NCBI RefSeq assembly: GCF_024105655.1
Contig: NZ_JAAAMH010000002.1
Coordinates: forward strand, 310,001 to 374,000
Origin: Aliihoeflea sp. 40Bstr573
GTDB lineage: Bacteria; Pseudomonadota; Alphaproteobacteria; Rhizobiales; Rhizobiaceae
Length of the DNA stretch: 64,000 nt
Direction of reading: 5' to 3'
This document shows positions 8,008 to 49,579 of the stretch, piece by piece. Each line of letters begins with the position of its first letter. Within the stretch, counting starts at the first letter, position 1. Made by a program: the position numbers and the translations under genes. The notes beneath the pieces are model-generated. The model saw only the letters and a program-made list of their open reading frames with translations, was not told where the DNA came from and did not search any database.

Positions 8008-8397
8008 ATGAAAGACGATCCTCGATACCCCCTCGCCCTCACGTGGCGCCGGTCGTGGCCCGGCTGCGATACGCATTTCAACGCGATTGACCCGGACCGA
8101 TGCGGGCTGTCCACCGTCGCCAACATCCACCTCGTGACGAACCACACGCCGGGCGTGCCCGACGAGTGGATGTGGCAATGCATTGCGCCGGGCTCGGACA
8201 AGGGCTCCGTGAGGCCGAAGATGGGCGCCTGGCGCGGATATTGCCCGGCGCCGCGCGAGGCGGCATGGAAGGCCGAGGAAGCCTATCGCCGGTTTCTCGA
8301 CGTGGTGCCGGCCGATGTGCTTGCGAGCGCCGTCGAAGCTGCAGAGTATTGGCGCCAGTCGCGCGAGCGAATCTACGCCGAGAAGGGAATGCCATGA
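8008..8397 (+). CDS. Hypothetical phage protein
   Basis: This is a 129-residue soluble protein starting MKDDPRYPLALTWRRSWPG. It is rich in Trp and Arg in its first half, with a charged helical C-terminus. I do not recognise the family. It overlaps the next gene through ATGA, so both belong to a short rightward pair facing away from the lysis genes. This orientation, opposite to the late operon, suggests expression in the lysogen or early. Confidence 0.6.
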   Translation: MKDDPRYPLALTWRRSWPGCDTHFNAIDPDRCGLSTVANIHLVTNHTPGVPDEWMWQCIAPGSDKGSVRPKMGAWRGYCPAPREAAWKAEEAYRRFLDVVPADVLASAVEAAEYWRQSRERIYAEKGMP

Positions 8398-28942: not shown

Positions 28943-30649
28943 TCACACCATCAGAAGGCCGCGAGACTCGTAGACCGAAGTCCCGGCTGCCTCCGGATTT
29001 AGGAACATCAGCATGGCAGCGTTGAACAGCGCCATGAGCGGATCGATCTTCGCGGCGCCCGAAACCTCCTTGGTCACCACGTAATTGCTTCCCCGCAAGG
29101 TCTGCTTCGCGTTGCCGACGGCCCAGGCCATGATTGGCTGCCCGCCATGGAGGAACCGCCGATCTTCGAGTTTGAGGGGAACCGACGAGACAGCGGTCTG
29201 CAGCTTCCACCCCTGCGTGACCGCCTGGACGATCGGGTCTTCGAGACCAGCCTCTTCCAGGGCATCGACCAGCAATGCAACGCCTGCGCTATCGAGGCCG
29301 ATTCCGCCCGTGGCCGGAAGCAACCCCGCCTCGTACACCTTCTTGCAAACCGCTGCGGCCGATTCTGCCTGGTCTTCACCCGACTTTGCGACGATCAGGT
29401 CGCCGCATTCCTCGAACTGCCGTAGGAGGTGAGCAATCCCTTTCCGCTGCTCGAATACCGTGGCACGCGCCCAGGCCTGCCCCCACCCCAGCCAGCGCTT
29501 CGTGAACCTCTCTCGGCCGATGACGTAAAGCGCGGCGAGATCGTCCGCGCCGCCCCAGTCGATGCCGATGGTGCAGACCTCACACCGTTTCAACAGGTCA
29601 TCGAGATCTGCGATCTTCAGGTCGATGCACGATTCCCAGTGCGGCGCGCCGGACCATCCGTCGCCGCCGATGCCGACGCCGATCTCAATGTTGAGATGCT
29701 GCGACGTCCATATCTGCTCGGCCTCCTTCGAGACCTTGCCATTGTTCTCATAATCATCGGCGAGCCGCTGGGGGTCGATCGACCGGCCCAGATTGGGCAA
29801 CAGATACTTCCAGTTCTGCATGTCGCGCCAGAATTCCTGATCGCGCTGCTTCTCGACTGGAAACTCGTAGAGAACGGGCAGCATGATCGGCGACTTTCCA
29901 CCCTTCCCGTCCCTGATCGCCCTCGCCTTCTTCAGCTCGGTCGCCCAGATTCCCGCGGGCGGCTCGTCGGACTGCGTCGTGATCATGAGGACCTGGCCAC
30001 CCTGCATGGTGATACCGCCACCGCGAATCTGCTGCATAACCGCTGCAGCCTTGGCTTTCTTCCCCAGCTCATGAACCTCATCGATGATCGTGAGGATCGG
30101 AATTTCGCCCGTGACGATCGACGTGTCGAACGTCTTCACATCGAGCATGGTGCCGGTCTTGCGACGGGTGATGCACTTCAGGTGATCCTGCACCTTGAAG
30201 ATTGCATCGAGGCGACTATCCAGCCGGATCATCCCTTGTGCCTGGTTGAAGCAGCGCTCCGAGATGTTCTGACTGGGCGCGACAAGAAGCATCTGACGGT
30301 TGGGCGCCTCTTCCATGAACAGCGCGGTCAGGCCCAGCGCCGCGACGTATGTGGTCTTCGAGTTCTTCTTCGGGACCATGCACAGCAGCTCCCAGACGAG
30401 CCGCTGCTTGGTTTCAGGGTCTTCGCTGGCGAGGAACGCGCAGAGGATGTCCCGAAACCAGTCGCCGCAAGCTTCTGACAGGGGCGGCGTGCCCGGCACA
30501 TCCGGGAGCTTCAGTCGATTGAAGAACGCAAGAGCCTTGGCAGCCTTCGCCTCGTTTAGCGGAACGTCCGCCATCGGGATCTGGCCGGCCTGAAGGCGGT
30601 CCCACCAGTCGGGACATGCGAACCGGGGCTGAGCCTCAGTGGTGGGCAT
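28943..30649 (-). CDS. Terminase large subunit (packaging ATPase-nuclease)
   Basis: This is a 568-residue protein. The Walker A variant VPKKNSKTT lies at 92-100 and the Walker B segment IIDEVHEL at ~188-195, with a coupling motif nearby. The nuclease part follows, with acidic residues in IGIDWGGADDLAALY near 360. It cuts and pumps concatemeric DNA through the portal. It overlaps the small subunit by 14 nt. Confidence 0.88.
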   Translation of the reverse strand: MPTTEAQPRFACPDWWDRLQAGQIPMADVPLNEAKAAKALAFFNRLKLPDVPGTPPLSEACGDWFRDILCAFLASEDPETKQRLVWELLCMVPKKNSKTTYVAALGLTALFMEEAPNRQMLLVAPSQNISERCFNQAQGMIRLDSRLDAIFKVQDHLKCITRRKTGTMLDVKTFDTSIVTGEIPILTIIDEVHELGKKAKAAAVMQQIRGGGITMQGGQVLMITTQSDEPPAGIWATELKKARAIRDGKGGKSPIMLPVLYEFPVEKQRDQEFWRDMQNWKYLLPNLGRSIDPQRLADDYENNGKVSKEAEQIWTSQHLNIEIGVGIGGDGWSGAPHWESCIDLKIADLDDLLKRCEVCTIGIDWGGADDLAALYVIGRERFTKRWLGWGQAWARATVFEQRKGIAHLLRQFEECGDLIVAKSGEDQAESAAAVCKKVYEAGLLPATGGIGLDSAGVALLVDALEEAGLEDPIVQAVTQGWKLQTAVSSVPLKLEDRRFLHGGQPIMAWAVGNAKQTLRGSNYVVTKEVSGAAKIDPLMALFNAAMLMFLNPEAAGTSVYESRGLLMV

Positions 30650-33097: not shown

Positions 33098-34906
33098 TCA
33101 TCGCACATGGCTTTCATAGTCGTCCGCGCCATGGTTGGCGGGCGGGCGCGGGACCTCCTGCAGGCGGATGCCGTGGTAGAGCACGATGCGGCCATCCTCG
33201 CGGGTGAACTTCTTCTTCATGATCAGGCCGAACCGCGTCAGCGAAATCGGCTTACCGCCCTGGTCGATCGTGAAGTCGACATAGGCCTGGTAGAAGTCCT
33301 TCGCGCTGACGGGTGGCGCCGTCGCCTCCGCGACGATGCAGCGAGCGCAGAAGGCCGATGTCGGGTCCATCTCGTCGCGATATTCCTGCGTCTTCGCCTT
33401 CACGCTCTCGGGGATCACCAGCCCCTCGGACAGGAAGATCTTCACCCCATCGATCAGCCAGTTGAGGATACCGGGATATTCGGGCGCGAACTGCGCCAGA
33501 ACCTCTTCGAAGGGCAGCTGGTCGGCCTCCGCGATAGTCTTCGGCCAGTGCACCACGGCCATGCGCCGCCAGATGCCGTTATCCGTGCCGCTGATGCGCG
33601 GATAGGCGTTGCCGGACATGTGGCCGACGAAGATGGGCTTGAAGTCGAAATAGCCCTGGAAGAGGTCGCGGACGGTGAAATCCTCACCGCCGGTCAGGTC
33701 CTTCACGAGGTTCTCGCGCAGGTCCTCGCCTTCGGGCATTTCCTTCACGCGCAGGAGCCGGCGGCCATAGAGCCGCGCCATGTCCGGATTTGCAGCGCCA
33801 CCACCCTTGCCCTCGCCGGTGAATGATTCGGACGGCAGCGTCACGGCAATCTCACCGAGCAGCCGGCACAGCGTCTCCATGTAGACCGACTTGCCGTTTG
33901 CGCCGAAACCGTAGTGGAAGAACAGTTTTTGAACCGTCAGGCCGACGAGGCCGAGACCGGAAGCCACCTGCACCATGCGCCGAACGTCAGCCAGCGGCAG
34001 CTTGTCATCCATGAAGTCGAGCCAGCGCGGGCACGTCGCCTTGGCGTCGTAATCGACGGGCACGATCTGCGTGATCAGGTCCTCGCGGGCGTGCCCCTTG
34101 CGGACGAGCAGCTGCACGTCCTTCTGCATGACGAATTGCGCGATCTTGCTGCGGTCGATGGTCGGGTCATCGCCATCTGCGCCCCAAACGGGGTTGGGCA
34201 CGCGCTTTTCCTTCACCCGGAAGGCGAGCGTGTGCCCCTTCACGGCAACCTTCAGCGCGTCGGCGTTGAACTCGTCAGGGCCGCGCATGACATGCGGCGC
34301 GGCGCATGCCAGCATCGCTTCCAGTCGCCCCTTGTTCTTCGACGACACGGCATGGCTATGCCGGCGCTGCACGCGCTTGCGATAGGCCTCAACGGCCTTT
34401 TCGGCCTTTGCGATGACGAGCCGCTCGACCTGCGTCAAATCGTTCGAAGCCTTGGCTTCCGCCGCCTTGGCGCGGTCGACAAGCTCCTGGTCTTCCTTCG
34501 TCATCTTCAGGACGCCCGCCTCGAGCGCAATACGCCCGCCGAGCTTCTGCGCGATTGCAAGCGCCCGGGGGTCGCCGGTGTCAATGTCCCAGTGATCGCC
34601 CGCCCATACGGCGAACGCAGCCTTGCGCGCTTTCGATTGCGCGAGCACGAGCAGATCCTCGCCGAAATGGGCAAGCAGCCGCTCCGCATTGTCGGTGTCC
34701 GAATGGTCGAGTGCAGCGCAGCGCGCCACGGTGTCCATGTCGACGCGCTCGCCGTCACGATGCGAAATGCCGGCCTCGCCTTCGTCGGCATCATCCGCGA
34801 CAGTTCGATCCTGGCCTGAAGGGGTTGCGGGGCCAAGCAGCGCCGCCTGCCGCTCCGCCTCGGCAAGGATCGCGCCGACCTGGTCGGGCAGTTTCTTCTT
34901 GGTCAC
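33098..34906 (-). CDS. D5/P4-type helicase-primase
   Basis: This is a 602-residue protein. Walker A is YGFGANGKS at 332-340, followed by the SF3 helicase core (DMARLYGRRLLRVKEMPEG, DLTGGEDFTVRDLF, MSGNAYPRISGTDNGIWRR), as in the D5/P4 alpha family. The N-terminal ~280 residues include a D5 N-like region. It unwinds phage DNA at the origin. It overlaps the Toprim primase gene by 4 nt, so both are made together. Confidence 0.85.
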   Translation of the reverse strand: MTKKKLPDQVGAILAEAERQAALLGPATPSGQDRTVADDADEGEAGISHRDGERVDMDTVARCAALDHSDTDNAERLLAHFGEDLLVLAQSKARKAAFAVWAGDHWDIDTGDPRALAIAQKLGGRIALEAGVLKMTKEDQELVDRAKAAEAKASNDLTQVERLVIAKAEKAVEAYRKRVQRRHSHAVSSKNKGRLEAMLACAAPHVMRGPDEFNADALKVAVKGHTLAFRVKEKRVPNPVWGADGDDPTIDRSKIAQFVMQKDVQLLVRKGHAREDLITQIVPVDYDAKATCPRWLDFMDDKLPLADVRRMVQVASGLGLVGLTVQKLFFHYGFGANGKSVYMETLCRLLGEIAVTLPSESFTGEGKGGGAANPDMARLYGRRLLRVKEMPEGEDLRENLVKDLTGGEDFTVRDLFQGYFDFKPIFVGHMSGNAYPRISGTDNGIWRRMAVVHWPKTIAEADQLPFEEVLAQFAPEYPGILNWLIDGVKIFLSEGLVIPESVKAKTQEYRDEMDPTSAFCARCIVAEATAPPVSAKDFYQAYVDFTIDQGGKPISLTRFGLIMKKKFTREDGRIVLYHGIRLQEVPRPPANHGADDYESHVR

Positions 34907-36559: not shown

Positions 36560-36820
36560 TCAGTGCGCATCACGTGAGACGTCGTCGCCTTGCTTCGCGC
36601 CGGGCGGGCGGTAGAAGGCGCGGAAGGAGACGGCGAGCCAGTCGCACACCGCGATCACCTTGGCCGCCGAGACGTGCTGTCCGCTCGACAGGCGCGACAG
36701 GTCAGACGCCGTCACGCCGATCTCGGCCGCGCAGACGCGCCAGCCGCGCCCGTCGGCCGAAAGGCGGTCGCGCAGGATCAGCCCAAGGCCGCGATAGTCG
36801 TAGGAGGCCCGCGGCTCCAT
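36560..36820 (-). CDS. Small XRE-type HTH protein
   Basis: This is an 86-residue protein. The segment WRVCAAEIGVTASDLSRLSSG is a typical XRE/Cro helix-turn-helix, followed by a short helical tail. One of a run of three small HTH proteins in the early operon. The ATG at 36820 overlaps the stop of the preceding gene. Confidence 0.7.
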   Translation of the reverse strand: MEPRASYDYRGLGLILRDRLSADGRGWRVCAAEIGVTASDLSRLSSGQHVSAAKVIAVCDWLAVSFRAFYRPPGAKQGDDVSRDAH

Positions 36821-37053
36821 CAGCGTGCCTCCGCCTTCAGGAACCGGTTGGCCGGTTCGCCCATCCAGGCGGCGAGCGCTATGAACTCGTCTTCGCCGGG
36901 GTTACGCCCTGCGGTGGCGCGCGACACGGCATCCGGCGTCACCTCGGCAAGCCGGGCAAGCGCGCCGACGCTCACGCCGCGGTGCACCCGCCGCGCCTCA
37001 AGGAACAGCGCGAACATCTGGAAATCGTAGCGCTTCGGATCGAACCCGCTCAT
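36820..37053 (-). CDS. Small XRE-type HTH protein
   Basis: This is a 77-residue protein starting MSGFDPKRYDFQMFALF. The segment VGALARLAEVTPDAVSRATAG is an XRE-type HTH. Start and stop overlap neighbours by ATGA. Directly downstream of the helicase-methyltransferase gene, so it may regulate early genes or accompany that enzyme. Confidence 0.7.
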   Translation of the reverse strand: MSGFDPKRYDFQMFALFLEARRVHRGVSVGALARLAEVTPDAVSRATAGRNPGEDEFIALAAWMGEPANRFLKAEAR

Positions 37054-39671
37054 TGCGCCGCCTCGGTCTGGGGCGTCTCGCGCAGGTCGAGATAGTCGAA
37101 CAGCGACGGGATCGACATCGAGGCCTCGGCGGCCTTGCAATGCGCGACGCCGTCGAGGAAGTAGCCAGGGTTGAGTTCGACGCCGAGACCGCGGCGGCCG
37201 AGTTTGACCGCGCAGTACGGCACGGTCATCAGCCCGCCGAAGGGATCGAAGACCAGGTCGCCCGGATTGGAGAGCTGCGCGATCGCCCGCTCGACGATGT
37301 CGAACTGAAGCGGGCAAAGATGCATCTCCTTGCCCTTGGCCGACTGCACGCCGTTGAGCGTGCGCATGCGCGCGACGTCGGTCCACACGTCGTCATGACG
37401 CGAGTGTGGTGGCAACAACATGAAGGTGGGCGGCAGCGCGCCGCGCATCTCCAGCGCCTCGCCGATCGCTACATGGTGCTCGAAATCGTAGATCGCATCG
37501 AGATTGAACGCCTTCCAGATCTTGTAGACCTGGTCGGCCGGCAGCCCCTGAAACTCCTCCGGCTTCATCGGCCGGTCGCCGGACGAGCGCGAGAACGCGT
37601 GCGCATCGATCTGCCAGCGGGCACGGCTGTAACCGTCCTCGTTGATCCAGGCGTCGGCCTTGCCGTCCCATTCCTTCTTGGCCTTGACGACCGGTACGTC
37701 GGCATAGGAGCGCGCGTCGTCGCTCTGCGGCTTGCGGAACATCAGGAGATATTCCGGCACGCCCGCGCCCATCTTGGTCGCGTCCTTGCACTGCTCGGTC
37801 CATCCGAGGCGATAGGTCTGGTTGTTCTCACGCACGACATCCGTCGTGATTGTCTTCATGCCCATGAAGGCGAAGCCGTGCCGCTTGAAATGGTAGATGC
37901 AGTCGGCATGGAAGGTGGAGAGCGTCTGGAAACCGAAGCCCGTCAATCCGCCCGGAACGACCCGGTCCTTCACATGGATGCAGGCCCATCGGCCAGGCTG
38001 CAGCACGCGCAGGAGCTGCGGCGTCAGGAAGTCCATCTGCGCCCAGAAGTGGTCGTCGTCGTCGGTGTGGCCGAAATCGTTGTAGCTGGGCGTATATTCG
38101 TACTGGGTGGAGAACGGGATCGAGGTGACGATCAGGCCGCAGGAGTTCTCGGCCATGGTCGACGTCTCGAGCACGTTGTCGTTGTTGACGGCAGTGAAGG
38201 TCTCGCCCTTCACTTCGATGCGCTCCACGCCGATCGAACGCTCCAGGGCTTGCGCCATGGCCTGTTCGTTCAGCCGGTATTTCCGGATGATCTCGCTCAT
38301 TTTCTCGACCTGTCGGAGGTGCTGGTTCCACTTGCGCTCGATGATGCGGCGCGTGCCGCGCTCGGCGGCGGTGTAGATGATGTCGACGCGGACCTGCCGG
38401 GTCTGGAGGAATCGAACCAGGCGGTGCCACGATTGGATGAAGTCGTTGAACTTCGCGGTGATGCCGACATAGACGGCGCGATGGCAGTGGCGCTGGAAGT
38501 TGCATCCCGAGCCGAGCATCACCGGCTTGCCGGCGAGGCGCCGGATGTGTCCGTCGGAAAAGTCCGCGATCGATTGCTCGCGCGCTTCGAGGTCCTGGCT
38601 GCCGTAGACCGAGACGAGGTCAGGGATCGCCCGTTCGAGGGCTTCCCGCTCGGCCTCGAGGTCATGCCAGAATATGAAATGATCGTCGGCATCGGCGGCG
38701 CAGATCTCTGCAGCCTTGCCGACGCGCGCCGAAATGCTGTCCCGCTTCTCGCGCGCAGCGCCGATGATGTCGTTGCCTGGATCGCGGATCAGGATGCCCT
38801 GCCCGCTCCGCTCGGTCTCGCGCGTCGACAGGTCGGCTGGCAACTCGTGCCAGTGCAGGTCGACGGGCGGCAGGTCGTAGCCGTCGTCGCTGTAGCCGAG
38901 GTCGGAGGGATTCTGCAGGAAGATCGCCCAGGACGAGACCCACAGCCAGAACTCATCCTCCTTGTGCGGGTGGAGCGTGAGTTGGTCGGCCTTTTCCGAG
39001 TTCCGCTTGAAGAAGCGGGTCTTCGCCTCGCTCACTTCCATGATGCCGAGATAGGCGGCATAGGCGAGCAGCTCGATATAGTCGTTCGGGCTCGGCGTCG
39101 CGGTGGCGACGAAGCGGTAGCGCACGCCCTCCGTGCGAATGCCGGTCTGGCGATCGTCGCCAGCGAAGAGCTTCATGAACTCGCGAAAGGTCTTCGACCC
39201 GCCAAAGCCGCGCAGGCAGGACGCCTCGTCCAGCGACGTCGCGGCGAAGTTGCGCGGATCAAGCTTTCCGTCCCGAACGGTCTCATAATTGGTCAGGAAG
39301 ATCCTGCAGCCGGTCTCGGCGAAGATCGCGCGCGCTTCCTCGATCGTCCGCACGAAGGCGATCGCAATGCCGAGCGTCTTGGCATCGCGCAGGAACTCGC
39401 CGCGCACGCCGAGCGGTGCCACGATCAGGCCAAGCGCGTCGGCTTCGAGATTGTCCAGCGTGCACCGGATCGTCTCGAGCTGCATGAAAGTCTTGCCCAG
39501 ACCGAAGGCGGCAAAGATCGCGCGACGGCCCCCGCGCACACACCATTCGATGATCGCGCGCTGATGATCTTTGCAGATCGGGTTGACGCGTCCGGCCTCG
39601 ATGACGATGCCGACGGGTGCAGCCGTGGCCGTCTTGGCATCGAGGAACTGGCGATAGGCTTCAAGGCTCAT
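37050..39671 (-). CDS. SF2 helicase-DNA methyltransferase fusion
   Basis: This is an 873-residue protein. The N-terminal half is an SNF2/SF2 helicase: Walker A AAFGLGKT at 54-61, a DEAS box at 148-151, TATPSPN near 190-196, and motif VI QSWHRLVRFLQTRQ at 413-426. The C-terminal half is a beta-class amino-methyltransferase: catalytic motif IV TSIPF at 516-520 comes before the SAM motif DPFGG at 809-813. The second residue of motif IV is Ile rather than Pro. It may methylate phage DNA against restriction or as a regulatory mark. No nuclease domain is visible. Start fixed by ATGA overlap with the GcrA-like gene. Confidence 0.82.
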   Translation of the reverse strand: MSLEAYRQFLDAKTATAAPVGIVIEAGRVNPICKDHQRAIIEWCVRGGRRAIFAAFGLGKTFMQLETIRCTLDNLEADALGLIVAPLGVRGEFLRDAKTLGIAIAFVRTIEEARAIFAETGCRIFLTNYETVRDGKLDPRNFAATSLDEASCLRGFGGSKTFREFMKLFAGDDRQTGIRTEGVRYRFVATATPSPNDYIELLAYAAYLGIMEVSEAKTRFFKRNSEKADQLTLHPHKEDEFWLWVSSWAIFLQNPSDLGYSDDGYDLPPVDLHWHELPADLSTRETERSGQGILIRDPGNDIIGAAREKRDSISARVGKAAEICAADADDHFIFWHDLEAEREALERAIPDLVSVYGSQDLEAREQSIADFSDGHIRRLAGKPVMLGSGCNFQRHCHRAVYVGITAKFNDFIQSWHRLVRFLQTRQVRVDIIYTAAERGTRRIIERKWNQHLRQVEKMSEIIRKYRLNEQAMAQALERSIGVERIEVKGETFTAVNNDNVLETSTMAENSCGLIVTSIPFSTQYEYTPSYNDFGHTDDDDHFWAQMDFLTPQLLRVLQPGRWACIHVKDRVVPGGLTGFGFQTLSTFHADCIYHFKRHGFAFMGMKTITTDVVRENNQTYRLGWTEQCKDATKMGAGVPEYLLMFRKPQSDDARSYADVPVVKAKKEWDGKADAWINEDGYSRARWQIDAHAFSRSSGDRPMKPEEFQGLPADQVYKIWKAFNLDAIYDFEHHVAIGEALEMRGALPPTFMLLPPHSRHDDVWTDVARMRTLNGVQSAKGKEMHLCPLQFDIVERAIAQLSNPGDLVFDPFGGLMTVPYCAVKLGRRGLGVELNPGYFLDGVAHCKAAEASMSIPSLFDYLDLRETPQTEAAQ

Positions 39672-40201
39672 CGCCGCCCCCTCGGCTCTTCCGATGCAGC
39701 CTGCTCGCCGCGCGTGCCGGCGCCGGCCACGCGACGGCGATGATGGTCGCACCAGGAGCCGCGCATGGTCGGTAGGCCGCAGAAAAGATGCGGCTCGCCT
39801 GGCGCCGCTTCGTTCACTGGAAACTTGCAATCGCCCCGAAGGCGCAGCTTGCCGATCGGCAGCGCGCGGCTGGCGGCGTCGAAGGCGTAGGCCTCCGCCG
39901 TCGTGATCGGCTGGTGAAAGACCGGATCGCCACTACGCCCTTCCCGCTTGCCGCGCAGGTTGCCTGGATGGACGGGCGCCGCCTTTTTCGGTTTGGTACT
40001 GGGAATGCCCTTCGCCGTGCCGAGGGCAACGGTCGTCTTGACGCTGCGCCCTGTCAGATGAAGGTCGGTCGAGCGATGCACGCGGCCGATGATGGCGGAG
40101 CGCGACACGCCGAGAACCTTGGAAATCTCGCCTGCGCTTTTGCCCGCATGCACGAGGCGGGTCAGCGTCGCCTGGCGCTCTTCTGTCCAGCCGCCGGTCA
40201 T
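39668..40201 (-). CDS. GcrA-like transcription regulator
   Basis: This is a 177-residue protein. Residues 5-46 match the GcrA N-terminal HTH (WTEERQATLTRLVHAGKSAGEISKVLG and SRSAIIGRVHR). The C-terminus has the GcrA-type CKFPV...FCG...WCDHHRRR pattern, the sigma70-contacting domain with Cys/His residues. Host GcrA reads methylated GANTC sites; a phage copy beside a beta-class methyltransferase could act on transcription from marked promoters. ATGA overlaps couple it to neighbours on both sides. Confidence 0.82.
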   Translation of the reverse strand: MTGGWTEERQATLTRLVHAGKSAGEISKVLGVSRSAIIGRVHRSTDLHLTGRSVKTTVALGTAKGIPSTKPKKAAPVHPGNLRGKREGRSGDPVFHQPITTAEAYAFDAASRALPIGKLRLRGDCKFPVNEAAPGEPHLFCGLPTMRGSWCDHHRRRVAGAGTRGEQAASEEPRGRR

Positions 40202-40686
40202 GACGCCCTCCGCAGCCGGCGCTCGCGCAGCGCGAGCTTGCGATAGACGTCCTGCTTGGCTGCGATGCCCTCGCGAACCTCCCGCCGCGCGGTCCCGATC
40301 GTGTCGAGGCAGTCACGCTTGGCAGGATCGGCCGCCGCGAGAACCGCCGGCCCGGCCTCACCCGATTCCTTGATCATGCGTGTGGCGTCGTCATAGGTGA
40401 GCTCATCACCCTCGCCGCCATCCATCGGCACCAGCTTCATGCCGACGAGCCCGGCGATGGTCGACAGAACGTCGTGCGAACCGGTGTCGCGGATCAGGTC
40501 GACGAGGACGTCGATGGGCATGAAGTGCCCCAGCTCCGATGGGCTACCATACTTCGACAGCACAGGCGCATCGACGCGGGTGATCAGGGCGAAGGCATTG
40601 GCGCGCGCCAGAGACAGGTCGCGACGGGTCGCGGCCTTGAGGTCCAGAAGCTCTTCGGGCTGTGTCGGGCGGGGAAGCTTGTTCAC
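40198..40686 (-). CDS. CII/CP76-like phage regulatory protein
   Basis: This is a 162-residue protein from a GTG at 40686, or 168 from a TTG at 40704. The part PIDVLVDLIRDTGSHDVLSTIAGLVGMKLV resembles the helical core of phage CII/CP76 regulators, which would control lysis-lysogeny or early transcription. It lies first after a large palindrome (40719-40743) in the early leftward operon, then leads into GcrA and the methyltransferase. Family match is by pattern only. Confidence 0.5.
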   Translation of the reverse strand: MNKLPRPTQPEELLDLKAATRRDLSLARANAFALITRVDAPVLSKYGSPSELGHFMPIDVLVDLIRDTGSHDVLSTIAGLVGMKLVPMDGGEGDELTYDDATRMIKESGEAGPAVLAAADPAKRDCLDTIGTARREVREGIAAKQDVYRKLALRERRLRRAS

Positions 40687-40718
40687 GGGTCGAACTTTCG
40701 GCAAGGCTTCGCCGTCAA

Positions 40719-45256: not shown

Positions 45257-46387
45257 ATGACGCAATTCACCATCCACCGCTCCGCGCTTCTGCCCGCGCT
45301 CGATCGCGTCGGTCGCATCGTCGAGCGTCGCAACACCATCCCGATTCTCGCCAACATGCGCATGACGGTCGAGGGTGACCAGCTGCGCATGACGGCCACC
45401 GATCTCGACATGGAGATCACCGCGACCGCGGAATTGCAGAGTGCCGGCGAAGGCGACGTCACCTTGCCGGCGGCGCTGCTGGGCGACTTCATCAAGAAGC
45501 TTCCCGAATCGGCGATCATCGAGTTCACGGCAGGCGAGACAGGGCGCATCCGCGTCGCGGCCGGCCGTACCCGCGCCCATCTTCCGTTCCTGCCGCCGCA
45601 GGATTTCCCCGAGCTGGCGGGCGGCGAGTTCGTCACGCGCATGGAGATCGCGCCGCAGGCCCTCGCGCGCATCCTGTCGACGGTCCAGTTTGCGATCTCG
45701 AGCGAGGAGACGCGCTACTATTTGAACGGCATCTATCTCCACCGGGCAGCGAGCGATGGGGAAGCCGCCTTGCGCGCCGTCGCGACGGACGGCCACCGCC
45801 TGGCGCGCAGCGAAATGCCTGCGCCCACGGATAGCGGCGAGATGCCCGCGATCATCATCCCCCGCAAGACCGTCGCGGAGATGCTGAAGCTGACGAAGGG
45901 CATCGACGATGCCGAACGGCTCGTACTGGAAGTGTCCGCGGCCAAGGTCCGCCTGTCGATGCCGGACGGCACCGTCCTGACGTCGAAGCTGATCGACGGC
46001 ACCTATCCCGACTATCAGCGCGTCATCCCGGCTAGCAATCCAAAGCGCTACACGCTCAAGGTCGCAGCGCTCGCATCCGCTGTCGATCGCGTGTCGACGA
46101 TCTCGGCCGAGCGCGGGCGGGCCGTGAAGTTCCGGTTCGGCGGCGAAGAGGTGCAGCTTGAATGCATGCATCCGGATATGGGCGAGGCCAGCGACAGTGT
46201 CGTTGTCGATGGCACTGAGGGTGAGGGAGAAACCGAGATCGGTTTCAACGGCCGCTATTGCCACGACGCGCTCGGCGCAGTGGTCGGCGAGAACGTCACC
46301 TTTGCCCTCGCCGATCCCGGATCGCCCGCCGTCATCACCGGCGCCAACAGCGCCGATCTCTTCGTTCTCATGCCGATGAGGGTCTGA
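45257..46387 (+). CDS. dnaN: Phage-encoded DNA polymerase III beta subunit (sliding clamp)
   Basis: This is a 376-residue, full-length DnaN. IVERRNTIPILANMRM, QFAISSEETRYYLNGIYLH, AVATDGHRLAR and the C-terminal LMPMRV are hallmarks of bacterial clamps. The length equals host clamps, with three domains. It may recruit the host polymerase to phage DNA or compete with the host clamp. A whole clamp in a prophage is uncommon. ATG at 45257 follows 65 bp after DUF2303, in the rightward operon. Confidence 0.88.
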   Translation: MTQFTIHRSALLPALDRVGRIVERRNTIPILANMRMTVEGDQLRMTATDLDMEITATAELQSAGEGDVTLPAALLGDFIKKLPESAIIEFTAGETGRIRVAAGRTRAHLPFLPPQDFPELAGGEFVTRMEIAPQALARILSTVQFAISSEETRYYLNGIYLHRAASDGEAALRAVATDGHRLARSEMPAPTDSGEMPAIIIPRKTVAEMLKLTKGIDDAERLVLEVSAAKVRLSMPDGTVLTSKLIDGTYPDYQRVIPASNPKRYTLKVAALASAVDRVSTISAERGRAVKFRFGGEEVQLECMHPDMGEASDSVVVDGTEGEGETEIGFNGRYCHDALGAVVGENVTFALADPGSPAVITGANSADLFVLMPMRV

Positions 46388-46603: not shown

Positions 46604-47091
46604 CCGTTCAAGAAAATCGCGCATCGATCGATGCCCTCACGTCCGAGATCGACCGGCTCCGCGCTGCCGATGCCGAATGGAGCCGGCTGCACCAGCAAGT
46701 CATAGAGGAGCGCGCCGCCGCACTGCGCGAGGTCGCGACCTTGAAGCTGGGACTGACATTCCGCGCGCTTCAGAAGGCGCATGTCGATCGGCAGGAAGAA
46801 TGGTGTCCTGAGCAGAAGCCAGACCTGTCGTTTCGCGGCAATGAGATGGCCGGTGAAGTTGGAGAGGCCTGCAACATCATCAAGAAGCTCGAACGCGAGC
46901 GGCACGGCTGGCGCGGCTCGCGAGCATCCGTGTCCGATCTCGGCGAAGAGCTTGCGGACGTCATCCACACAGCCGTCCTGTGCGCAATAACAGCGGGCAT
47001 CGACCTGCAGAAATGCGTCGTCGCCAAATTCAATGCGACATCAGAAAAGAACCGCCTCAGCGTCAGCTTGCAGGAGTTGCGCAATGGCTGA
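46600..47091 (+). CDS. MazG-like nucleotide pyrophosphohydrolase
   Basis: This is a 163-residue protein. The C-terminal half has EMAGEVGEACNIIKKLERE and DLGEELADVIHTAVL, the EExxE-type metal-binding pattern of the MazG-like superfamily. The N-terminal ~50 residues are coiled coil. It may hydrolyse NTPs or alarmone and alter starvation signalling. Overlaps neighbours on both sides. Confidence 0.75.
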   Translation: MTVQENRASIDALTSEIDRLRAADAEWSRLHQQVIEERAAALREVATLKLGLTFRALQKAHVDRQEEWCPEQKPDLSFRGNEMAGEVGEACNIIKKLERERHGWRGSRASVSDLGEELADVIHTAVLCAITAGIDLQKCVVAKFNATSEKNRLSVSLQELRNG

Positions 47092-48235
47092 AACATCTCT
47101 CATCGAATGGACGGATGCGACGTGGAACCCGATCACTGGTTGTTCCGTCGTCTCGCCCGGCTGCACAAATTGCTACGCCATGAAGTTGGCCGGATCCCGC
47201 CTGCGTCACATTTCAAGCCGCGCAGGTTTAACAGTCGATTCGAAGAACGGCCCGGTTTGGAACGGGAAGGTCCGCCTTAACGAGGAATCGCTCAGCGATC
47301 CGTTAAGATGGAAACGCCCGCGATTGATCTTCGTCTGCGCGCACGGAGACCTGTTTCACGAGAGCGTTCCTGATGCCTGGATCGACCAGGTCTTTGCTAT
47401 CATGGCAATCACCCCTTGGCATACATATCAGGTGCTGACGAAGCGCGCTGGTCGCATGCGCGCGTACTTCGAGGAAACATGGCAGCGTCCGGCTCGTGAA
47501 GGCTTCCACATCGGCGATCTCAGCATACCGGCACAGCCTGCGGGTATTGATGACCGCTGGCACCAAGTCGAATCGGCCATCGATGCGCTTTCGATTCCTG
47601 ACGATGCGCGCTTTTGGACCGAAGACGGCAAGCTGCTCGGCAGACCTGCTTGGCCTCGCGCACCGCTTCCCAATGTTTGGCTCGGCGTCTCAGCCGAGGA
47701 TCAAGTCCGCGCCAACGAGCGAATTCCTGATTTGCTGGCGACGCCGGCAGCGGTGAGATTTCTTTCGGCAGAGCCGTTAATCGGCTCTATCAATCTGCGG
47801 CGAGTTCGCATCTCCCCCGATCATCATACGATCATTGACGCCCTTGATGGCTACGCGGTTGCCGACAGGTCTGGTGTCGAGCGCTCAATGCTCGACTGGG
47901 TCATCGTCGGCGGTGAGAGCGGAGCCAATGCGCGACCTATGCATCCGGACTGGGCTCGTTCCTTGCGCGACCAGTGCCGAGATGCGGGAACACCATTCTT
48001 TTTCAAGCAATGGGGTGAATGGGAAACGGCAATCGACCGTGATCGAGATGACGCTGATTGGCGCGCAGACTACTCCAGAGACTTTATTGATCGAGGCAAA
48101 TCGCGCTGGATAAATTTAGCCGGAGGACGTGGATTCCACGGCGAGAGATTCCACGTGATGCGTAGAGTCGGAAAGAAGGCCGCTGGCAGGCTCTTGGATG
48201 GAGTAGAGCACAGCGCTCTGCCAAAGGAGCGATAG
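47084..48235 (+). CDS. Phage Gp37/Gp68 family protein (DUF5131)
   Basis: This is a 383-residue protein starting MAETSLIEWTDATWNPITGC. The Cys cluster CSVVSPGCTNCYAM is typical of Gp37/Gp68 proteins and resembles a metal-cluster site of radical-SAM-like enzymes. A conserved C-terminal VIVGGESGANARPMHPDW follows. Common in phages, function not known to me. It overlaps the MazG-like gene by 8 nt. Confidence 0.85.
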   Translation: MAETSLIEWTDATWNPITGCSVVSPGCTNCYAMKLAGSRLRHISSRAGLTVDSKNGPVWNGKVRLNEESLSDPLRWKRPRLIFVCAHGDLFHESVPDAWIDQVFAIMAITPWHTYQVLTKRAGRMRAYFEETWQRPAREGFHIGDLSIPAQPAGIDDRWHQVESAIDALSIPDDARFWTEDGKLLGRPAWPRAPLPNVWLGVSAEDQVRANERIPDLLATPAAVRFLSAEPLIGSINLRRVRISPDHHTIIDALDGYAVADRSGVERSMLDWVIVGGESGANARPMHPDWARSLRDQCRDAGTPFFFKQWGEWETAIDRDRDDADWRADYSRDFIDRGKSRWINLAGGRGFHGERFHVMRRVGKKAAGRLLDGVEHSALPKER

Positions 48236-49502: not shown

Positions 49503-49517
49503 TGGTGATCCCGACTG
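49503..49517. repeat. Right prophage attachment site (attR) inside tRNA-Arg
   Basis: Direct repeat partner of 7534-7548. It forms the 3' end of the tRNA, including the encoded CCA, so integration leaves a functional tRNA. Confidence 0.85.
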
Positions 49518-49579
49518 GATTCGAACCAGTGACCCTCAGATTAGGAATCTGATGCTCTATCCTACTGAGCTACGGGACC
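49503..49579 (-). tRNA. tRNA-Arg(CCT)
   Basis: Cloverleaf on the minus strand: acceptor GGTCCCG/CGGGATC (one G-U pair), anticodon arm TCAGA-TTCCTAA-TCTGA with anticodon CCT, T arm with GGTTCGAATCC, and an encoded CCA at 49503-49505. It decodes AGG. It is the prophage integration target. Confidence 0.95.

Follow-up and report, generated by a model that had tools for sequence, protein, structure and literature searches.

A phage-family fusion of an SNF2-type translocase and a beta-class DNA amino-methyltransferase with a variant motif IV

A prophage of Aliihoeflea sp. 40Bstr573 encodes a single polypeptide that joins an SNF2-type motor to a beta-class DNA amino-methyltransferase. The gene lies in a window of 64,000 nucleotides (NCBI RefSeq assembly GCF_024105655.1, contig NZ_JAAAMH010000002.1, positions 310,001 to 374,000 of the forward strand), to which all coordinates below refer unless another locus is named. 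It occupies 37050..39671 on the minus strand, stop codon included, with an ATG start codon at 39671 of this open frame, and its 873-residue product is recognized as an SNF2 translocase-methyltransferase fusion from the translation, Pfam and PHROG matches and an AlphaFold2 model. The protein is probably a motor-driven enzyme that methylates amino groups in phage DNA and thereby marks that DNA against host defence nucleases. As judged from sequence comparison, three aspects are new here: the family-wide S(I/V/W)PF form of motif IV in long fusions, set against SPPF in related split methylases; the independent rise of SIPF in a few of these split methylases; and the replacement of one version of the gene by another in two natural phage pairs. 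The helicase-methylase architecture is already known, since several phage records are annotated 'DNA helicase/methylase' and Pacc40 gp60 has been described as having a methylase domain after a helicase domain (PMC11855218). The window gene is an ordinary member of this widespread, annotated phage family.

Domains and motif IV of the fusion family

The motor covers approximately residues 22-465 (38277..39608, minus strand), as delimited by structural and profile matches. Translation and alignment place in it the helicase motifs I (AAFGLGKT, residues 54-61, 39489..39512), II (SLDEAS, residues 146-151, 39219..39236), III (TATPSPN, residues 190-196, 39084..39104) and VI (QSWHRLVRFLQ, residues 413-423, 38403..38435), all on the minus strand. 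A whole-protein AlphaFold2 model built on 67 family members (mean predicted local distance difference test score (pLDDT) 80.7; predicted template modeling score (pTM) 0.70) matches INO80 (7zi4_G) over residues 22-465 with Z 29.1 and a root-mean-square deviation (rmsd) of 3.0 over 374 aligned residues (VIA-align), and the family profile matches the SNF2 enzyme 1z63 (E 4.6e-15). The four motifs and the two-lobe fold of SNF2 translocases are all present, and the motor motifs are kept across 109 aligned long fusions from Pseudomonadota, Bacillota, Bacteroidota and viral contigs. SNF2 motors travel on duplex DNA without separating its strands (PMC5512222), which makes 'translocase' a better name than 'helicase'; the motor would move along DNA rather than unwind it.

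The methyltransferase domain spans approximately residues 485-853 (37113..38219, minus strand; Pfam PF01555 and domain-model matches). The Pfam match itself, N6_N4_Mtase, covers residues 513-838 and scores 51 bits (E 2.4e-13), where the curated cut-off is 26.7, and the only other Pfam match up to E 1 is a sub-threshold ABC_tran_Xtn; PF00398 does not appear. On the minus strand, motif IV (TSIPF, residues 516-520, 38112..38126) comes before the motif X region (HLCPLQ, residues 784-789, 37305..37322) and the S-adenosylmethionine (SAM)-binding motif I (DPFGGLMTV, residues 809-817, 37221..37247), as read from translation and alignments. This is the order, IV before X-I, given for the beta class in PMC2890505. 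The DPPY or SPPY typical of beta-class motif IV is absent: TSIPF of the window protein lines up with TSPPY of TTHA0409. The textbook form of motif I is DPFxGSGT, and the DPFGGLMT of the window protein departs from it too. The initial annotation had read the protein as a full superfamily 2 (SF2) helicase joined to a beta-class amino-methyltransferase, with TSIPF in place of SPPY/F. Both points stand after translation, Pfam, PHROG (the 'DNA helicase' family phrog_16 spans residues 30-870, E 1.9e-116) and fold comparison, with the helicase refined to the SNF2 kind.

As the whole-protein fold search covered mainly residues 22-465, the methyltransferase part was modeled separately from 78 sequences (mean pLDDT 78.9, pTM 0.79). 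Among the structural matches listed for it are M.BceJIV (Z 23.6, rmsd 3.8, 245 residues aligned), TTHA0409 (2zie_B; Z 23.5, rmsd 2.5, 223 aligned), PvuII (Z 22.2, rmsd 3.4, 249 aligned), CcrM (Z 22.2, rmsd 3.1, 241 aligned) and the Mod subunit of EcoP15I (4zcf; Z 19.6, rmsd 3.8, 235 aligned). The model thus supports, at the level of the fold, the SAM pocket expected in the C-terminal part, with matches at Z 19-24 to SAM-dependent beta-class methyltransferases that include one cofactor complex. The fold leaves the target base unsettled because enzymes forming N4-methylcytosine (PvuII) and N6-methyladenine (CcrM, M.BceJIV) both match. As a rule of thumb, serine in motif IV hints at cytosine N4. 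The predicted target of the methylase is an exocyclic amino group of the DNA bases, with cytosine N4 the likeliest. No nuclease family was found among the matches listed for the fusion protein in four family libraries (for PADLOC, 25 of 34 matches), in agreement with the initial annotation; the PADLOC matches listed are generic methylase models and add no information.

Relatives of the fusion are widespread. A translated search recovered them in 309 of 50,697 phage records, 301 of which cover at least 80% of the protein, so the fusion is not a chance event. By organism name these records include Mycobacterium (146), Flavobacterium (85), Arthrobacter (27), Pseudomonas (22) and other phages. Genome contigs contributed 39 loci, although L039 matches only over a short stretch at motif level; another 79 loci came from viral contigs (the best 80 of 86); together they come from Pseudomonadota, Bacillota, Bacteroidota and unassigned viruses. 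The host genome encodes a single copy of the fusion protein, the other match covering just 57 residues, and a relative is absent from all four other genomes of the genus, except for a 44-residue motif match in one of them.

Motif IV separates the long fusions from their split relatives. In an alignment of 109 long fusions (108 loci and the window, after 9 of 117 family loci were excluded as partial or split), SIPF occurs in 95 rows, SVPF in 12 and SWPF in two, and SPP(Y/F) in none; for the 87 distinct methylase stretches among them the counts are 78, 8 and 1. Contrary to what the initial annotation had implied, neither the fusion nor its motif is special to this phage; both are features of the whole family. 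The separate methylases in phage records that hold the motif IV region have SPPF (5/5), as does the short fusion FCV-1.01; the annotated EBPR methylase lacks its N-terminal part and with it the motif IV region. A further 160 loci encoding related methylases, almost always accompanied by a motor gene of their own, were taken from two scans (the best 80 of at least 598 and the best 80 of 113). SPPF is found in 152 of them and SIPF in seven, and one, the methylase open reading frame (ORF) of L278, has no S-x-P-F match; the 124 distinct sequences divide into 116, 7 and 1. No paper on a SIPF motif in DNA methyltransferases was found in the full-text PMC subset searched.

In an unrooted tree of 104 methylase domains, in which the split side consists of dereplicated representatives without the seven SIPF rows, a single branch parts the long fusions from the rest (support 100/100). 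The direction of change on this branch is taken from the split forms, which have SPPF, and from TTHA0409, which has SPPY. The seven split-type methylases with SIPF (L201, L205, L209, L212, L216, L220 and L227), each beside a motor gene, form one group against 75 SPPF rows in a quick tree of 82 Pan4-like methylases with the motif masked (Shimodaira-Hasegawa-like approximate likelihood ratio test 93). SIPF thus stands on two separate branches, with an independent second origin among split-type methylases.

These patterns bear on whether the methylase is catalytically dead and merely aims the motor at chosen DNA sites, as could be suspected because motif IV has lost its first proline and motif I its usual GSG. 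Such an outcome is very improbable. All 78 aligned methylase domains, fused and split, retain S517, P519 and F520; a change from Pro to Ile needs two nucleotide substitutions (CCN to ATH) and has occurred on two branches; the site is encoded by three different Ile and four different Val codons across 66 loci; and active KsgA-type enzymes hold a hydrophobic residue at the same position. Because of the invariant residues, the two-nucleotide change, the two branches and the several codons, SIPF does not look like a product of decay. Both domains of the fusion are expected to be active.

A different chemistry can be proposed for the motif. Monomethylating DNA enzymes carry (N/D)PP(Y/F/W), and the dimethylating rRNA enzymes KsgA and ErmC' carry (A/S/N)(L/I/V)P(Y/F), where a small hydrophobic residue instead of the first proline alters the backbone and so allows a substrate with one methyl group already in place to bind again (PMC3814359). 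The host's own KsgA-like protein has NLPY, and changing NLPY to AAAA abolished activity in human DIMT1 (PMC8463865). The SIPF of the window protein fits the dimethylase pattern, and Ile or Val is found in 107 of the 109 rows; the other two, with SWPF, fall outside the description 'small hydrophobic'. By this analogy, a pocket with Ile or Val at the first proline position of SPPF would accept a once-methylated base again, and the family would be DNA N,N-dimethyltransferases that furnish phage DNA with N4,N4-dimethylcytosine or N6,N6-dimethyladenine. Such a change would then have arisen on two SNF2-linked methylase branches, perhaps as a defence against nucleases that recognize single methyl marks or cut despite them. 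This proposal is doubtful: one motif is shared and the subfamily is different, so the likeness may serve as a lead and is no demonstration. KsgA and Erm structures are not among the 50 structural matches listed for the methylase domain, a list that cannot exclude them. A limited full-text search, which is no proof of absence in print, found no report of N,N-dimethylated bases in DNA, and the passages on dimethylcytosine in PMC13296781 deal with free bases, not DNA.

Motor linkage and cassette replacement

The methylase is tied to an SNF2 motor well beyond the fused form. At the 160 split-type loci a separate motor ORF is present in 152, a fused one in three and none in five; the separate ORF lies within 400 nucleotides by frame ends in 145 loci and within 1.5 kb in the other seven, and four of the five motor-less loci hold less than 250 nucleotides of upstream sequence. 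In the proposed mechanism, the motor would carry the methylase along double-stranded DNA during modification, and the marked phage DNA would escape cutting by host defence nucleases. The same protective logic has been proposed for DarB (PMC5512222).

Different versions of the gene replace one another between related phages. One example, from phages of Mycobacterium smegmatis (laboratory host mc2 155), is Koella, whose genes 60-61 are split and carry SPPF, and Job42, whose gene 69 is fused and carries SIPF; Job42 has, in addition, a gene 65 annotated as a DNA methyltransferase. Their flanks are 95.3% identical over 1812 bases on one side and 98.0% on the right, where identity extends for only 149 bases and the sequence is mosaic further out; the exchange replaces the small neighbouring gene 62 as well. 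Another example is found in Flavobacterium phages, where FCV-1.01 encodes a 729-residue short fusion with SPPF and V186 an 841-residue long fusion with SIPF between flanks that are 96.6% (2127 bases) and 97.3% (1678 bases) identical. In both pairs the breakpoints fall at gene edges or at most about 90 nucleotides inside. With a fused form set against a split one in the first pair, a long against a short one in the second, and flanks 95-98% identical, the versions behave as interchangeable cassettes in these two pairs.

A control matched on the D5 primase gives a view of the same position in related prophages. After 11 of 33 related D5 primase loci with little upstream DNA had been excluded, 22 were examined, of which 17 have a DNA methyltransferase in the 9.5 kb upstream of D5: the fusion in six, a split pair in one, and solely C5, N6/N4 or MT-A70 types in 10. 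The rows are partly non-independent (L141/L142, L143/L144 and L161/L162 look alike), and four Pfam-negative ORFs (L139, L155 and two in L164) were scored methylase-free, although one of those in L164 shows an SPP motif by eye.

The fusion could instead be a replication or recombination factor whose motor remodels forks, with the mark secondary, for instance in strand or origin recognition. The fusion gene lies near two primase genes on the same strand, a RecA-like gene is found near the locus in Koella and Job42, and sliding-clamp genes are close to the fusion in some loci. This role is nonetheless improbable: the 10 of 22 related prophages noted above have another methylase in the same upstream region and no fusion, and S-LBS1 has its own second SF2 helicase together with a VRR-NUC gene. 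Gene swapping and the crowding of several methylase kinds fit modification genes under changing nuclease pressure, and are harder to reconcile with an essential replication helicase.

Several observations weigh against a motor-driven protective methylase. The presumed target-recognition stretch, with mean pairwise identities of 0.60-0.73 (residues 601-700), 0.28 (701-725) and 0.46-0.53 (726-775) among 38 representatives, is not strongly diversified, unlike that of methylases tracking many host restriction sites; the target may thus be the same across hosts or relaxed, which weakens a site-tracking story. The motor may be dispensable, as L278, with a truncated methylase, is a true exception that has 4.75 kb of upstream sequence and no motor, and the fusions of L029 and L106 lack the helicase motif II-III stretch and keep SIPF. 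A C5-methyltransferase gene lies within 8 kb of the fusion in 33 of 66 family loci, and within 1.5 kb in 30. It was rejected as a dedicated partner, since among the primase-matched loci, where whole loci were counted (a looser measure than these distances), it occurs in 8 of 14 without the fusion and in 4 of 6 with it. The C5 neighbours say nothing specific about the fusion, and the fusion and a C5 gene occur together in L136, L138 and L163, so they are not simple alternatives.

On balance, protection of phage DNA by a motor-driven methylase, the role suggested by the initial annotation as an anti-restriction modifier translocating on DNA, is still the favoured idea. No functional test of the chemistry of this family was found in the literature surveyed. 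The matched phage pairs are natural test material, which could show what the motor adds and whether an enzyme with Ile instead of Pro leaves a different mark on DNA, possibly as far as N,N-dimethylated bases.

Operon and neighbouring genes

The fusion gene is embedded in a row of minus-strand genes. Immediately upstream is a GcrA-like gene (39668..40201; Pfam PF07750, E 6.7e-17), preceded by a CII-like activator gene (40198..40704; phrog_101, E 9.4e-10), and immediately downstream is a gene for a helix-turn-helix (HTH) protein (36820..37053; HTH_31, PF13560, E 1.3e-6). Overlaps of four nucleotides (ATGA) join the fusion gene to both the GcrA-like and the HTH gene, so the three are probably translated together. 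Further downstream are a phage primase (34903..36150; DUF7146 with a sub-threshold zinc ribbon; phrog_510, E 4.9e-74) and a D5-type primase/helicase (33098..34906; PF08706; phrog_1156, E 6.8e-123), and beyond them HNH, terminase, portal, major head and tape-measure genes, with the terminase large subunit of the same prophage at 28943..30649 (phrog_9, E 1.2e-87). Given these regulators, primases and structural genes, the locus is probably the early operon in a prophage of the tailed kind, and the fusion would be expressed early. An operon with GcrA- and HTH-type regulators had been noted initially and is supported.

This arrangement raises the possibility of an epigenetic switch, also put forward by the initial annotation, in which marks set by the methylase on phage or host promoters would be recognized by the GcrA-like and HTH proteins and so control when lysis or lysogeny occurs. 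In addition to the overlap in the window and the HTH gene next downstream, a GcrA-like stretch ends about 0.1 kb or less upstream of the fusion in L040 and L115. GcrA as a conserved partner was rejected, though, as just 7 of 118 loci hold a relative of it. Two of these seven matches are weak, some of the seven are copies of one element, and none is from a Bacillota or Bacteroidota locus. With this main hint not a feature of the family, and with related versions swapping in two phage pairs, such a switch is unlikely.

It can also be asked whether the fusion is the modification half of a restriction system directed against other phages, with its nuclease encoded elsewhere, as SF2 motors and methylases meet in type I and III restriction systems too (PMC5512222). 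This is highly unlikely. The fusion protein lacks any nuclease family among those listed for it, and no recurrent nuclease partner emerged when 150 of 166 neighbouring ORFs were scanned, the C5 set having been removed beforehand; the commonest nuclease family, HNH_3, has just three members.

Other genes of these regions were recorded in passing. Large C5-methyltransferases (PF00145) are frequent in the early regions, for instance at 8118-10004 of L063 and in its relatives. The usual form of the C5-methyltransferase motif is PCQ, and these proteins have an SPDC(K/R) or SPPCKG stretch at that position. The early region of the window also holds a phage-type DNA polymerase sliding clamp (phrog_947; 45257-46387, plus strand); sliding-clamp genes recur close to the fusion in other family loci, and a search for loci with the clamp of the window as query found none. 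A gene of the functionally unassigned family phrog_2045, possibly DUF5131, lies at 47033-48235 and has relatives in six other family loci. Past the early genes is a tRNA-Arg (CCT) gene (49503-49579), a possible attachment site.

Some family members differ in gene structure. The fusion is broken into two frames in the contigs of L116, L033 and L037. Job42 gene 69 (L130, 5986-9498) carries an in-frame insert of about 320 residues at the conserved Cys of HVC-PLQ in motif X, equivalent to the Cys of HLCPLQ in the window protein; the insert resembles an intein by eye, and the annotation of the gene as 'anaerobic ribonucleoside reductase large subunit' is perhaps owing to it. L029 and L106 have a 1452-residue frame from locus base 8099, in which a ParB-like segment and a DPPW (MT-A70-like) methylase, both recognized by eye, precede the fusion.

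Comparison with known systems

The closest known relatives are the phage 'DNA helicase/methylase' genes of phrog_16, found for instance in phi297, Job42 and Arthrobacter phage Auxilium. Their products have the same domain order and motifs and a similar length, and are approximately 53-62% identical to the window protein, Job42 being longer through its insert. There is no essential difference, and the window gene is a member of this group; Pacc40 gp60, likened by its published description only, is a probable relative of the same type. Compared with the split-type phage methylases, the window protein has about 100 extra residues.

Among cellular and restriction enzymes, TTHA0409 (2zie/2zif) and other beta-class methyltransferases share the fold and motif order; TTHA0409 has TSPPY and no motor, whereas the window protein has TSIPF and a motor. 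In type III restriction enzymes such as EcoP15I, a beta-class methylase (Mod) works with an SF2 motor, and the motor subunit has a nuclease domain. The fold of Mod matches the window methylase domain, but the window protein is one polypeptide with an SNF2-type motor, and a nuclease was not found among the families listed. The KsgA/Erm rRNA dimethyltransferases share the motif IV pattern (PMC3814359); they act on RNA, have no motor and belong to PF00398, so that the likeness is one of a single motif.

A 'DNA methylase-helicase dyad', in which an SNF2 ATPase and a methylase occur in one polypeptide or in neighbouring genes, has already been described in print (PMC5512222), and the window protein has this make-up. 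Like the window protein, DarB of phage P1 combines an SNF2 ATPase and a DNA amino-methylase in one polypeptide, with the same proposed role. DarB-type proteins are gamma-class enzymes with NPP(Y/F), a methylase before the motor and an LPD36 domain, and are virion proteins (PMC5512222). The window protein, in contrast, has the beta-class order, SIPF and the motor first, is 873 residues long, and is encoded beside regulators and primases. By these sequence features, it is a distinct variant of the published methylase-helicase dyad.

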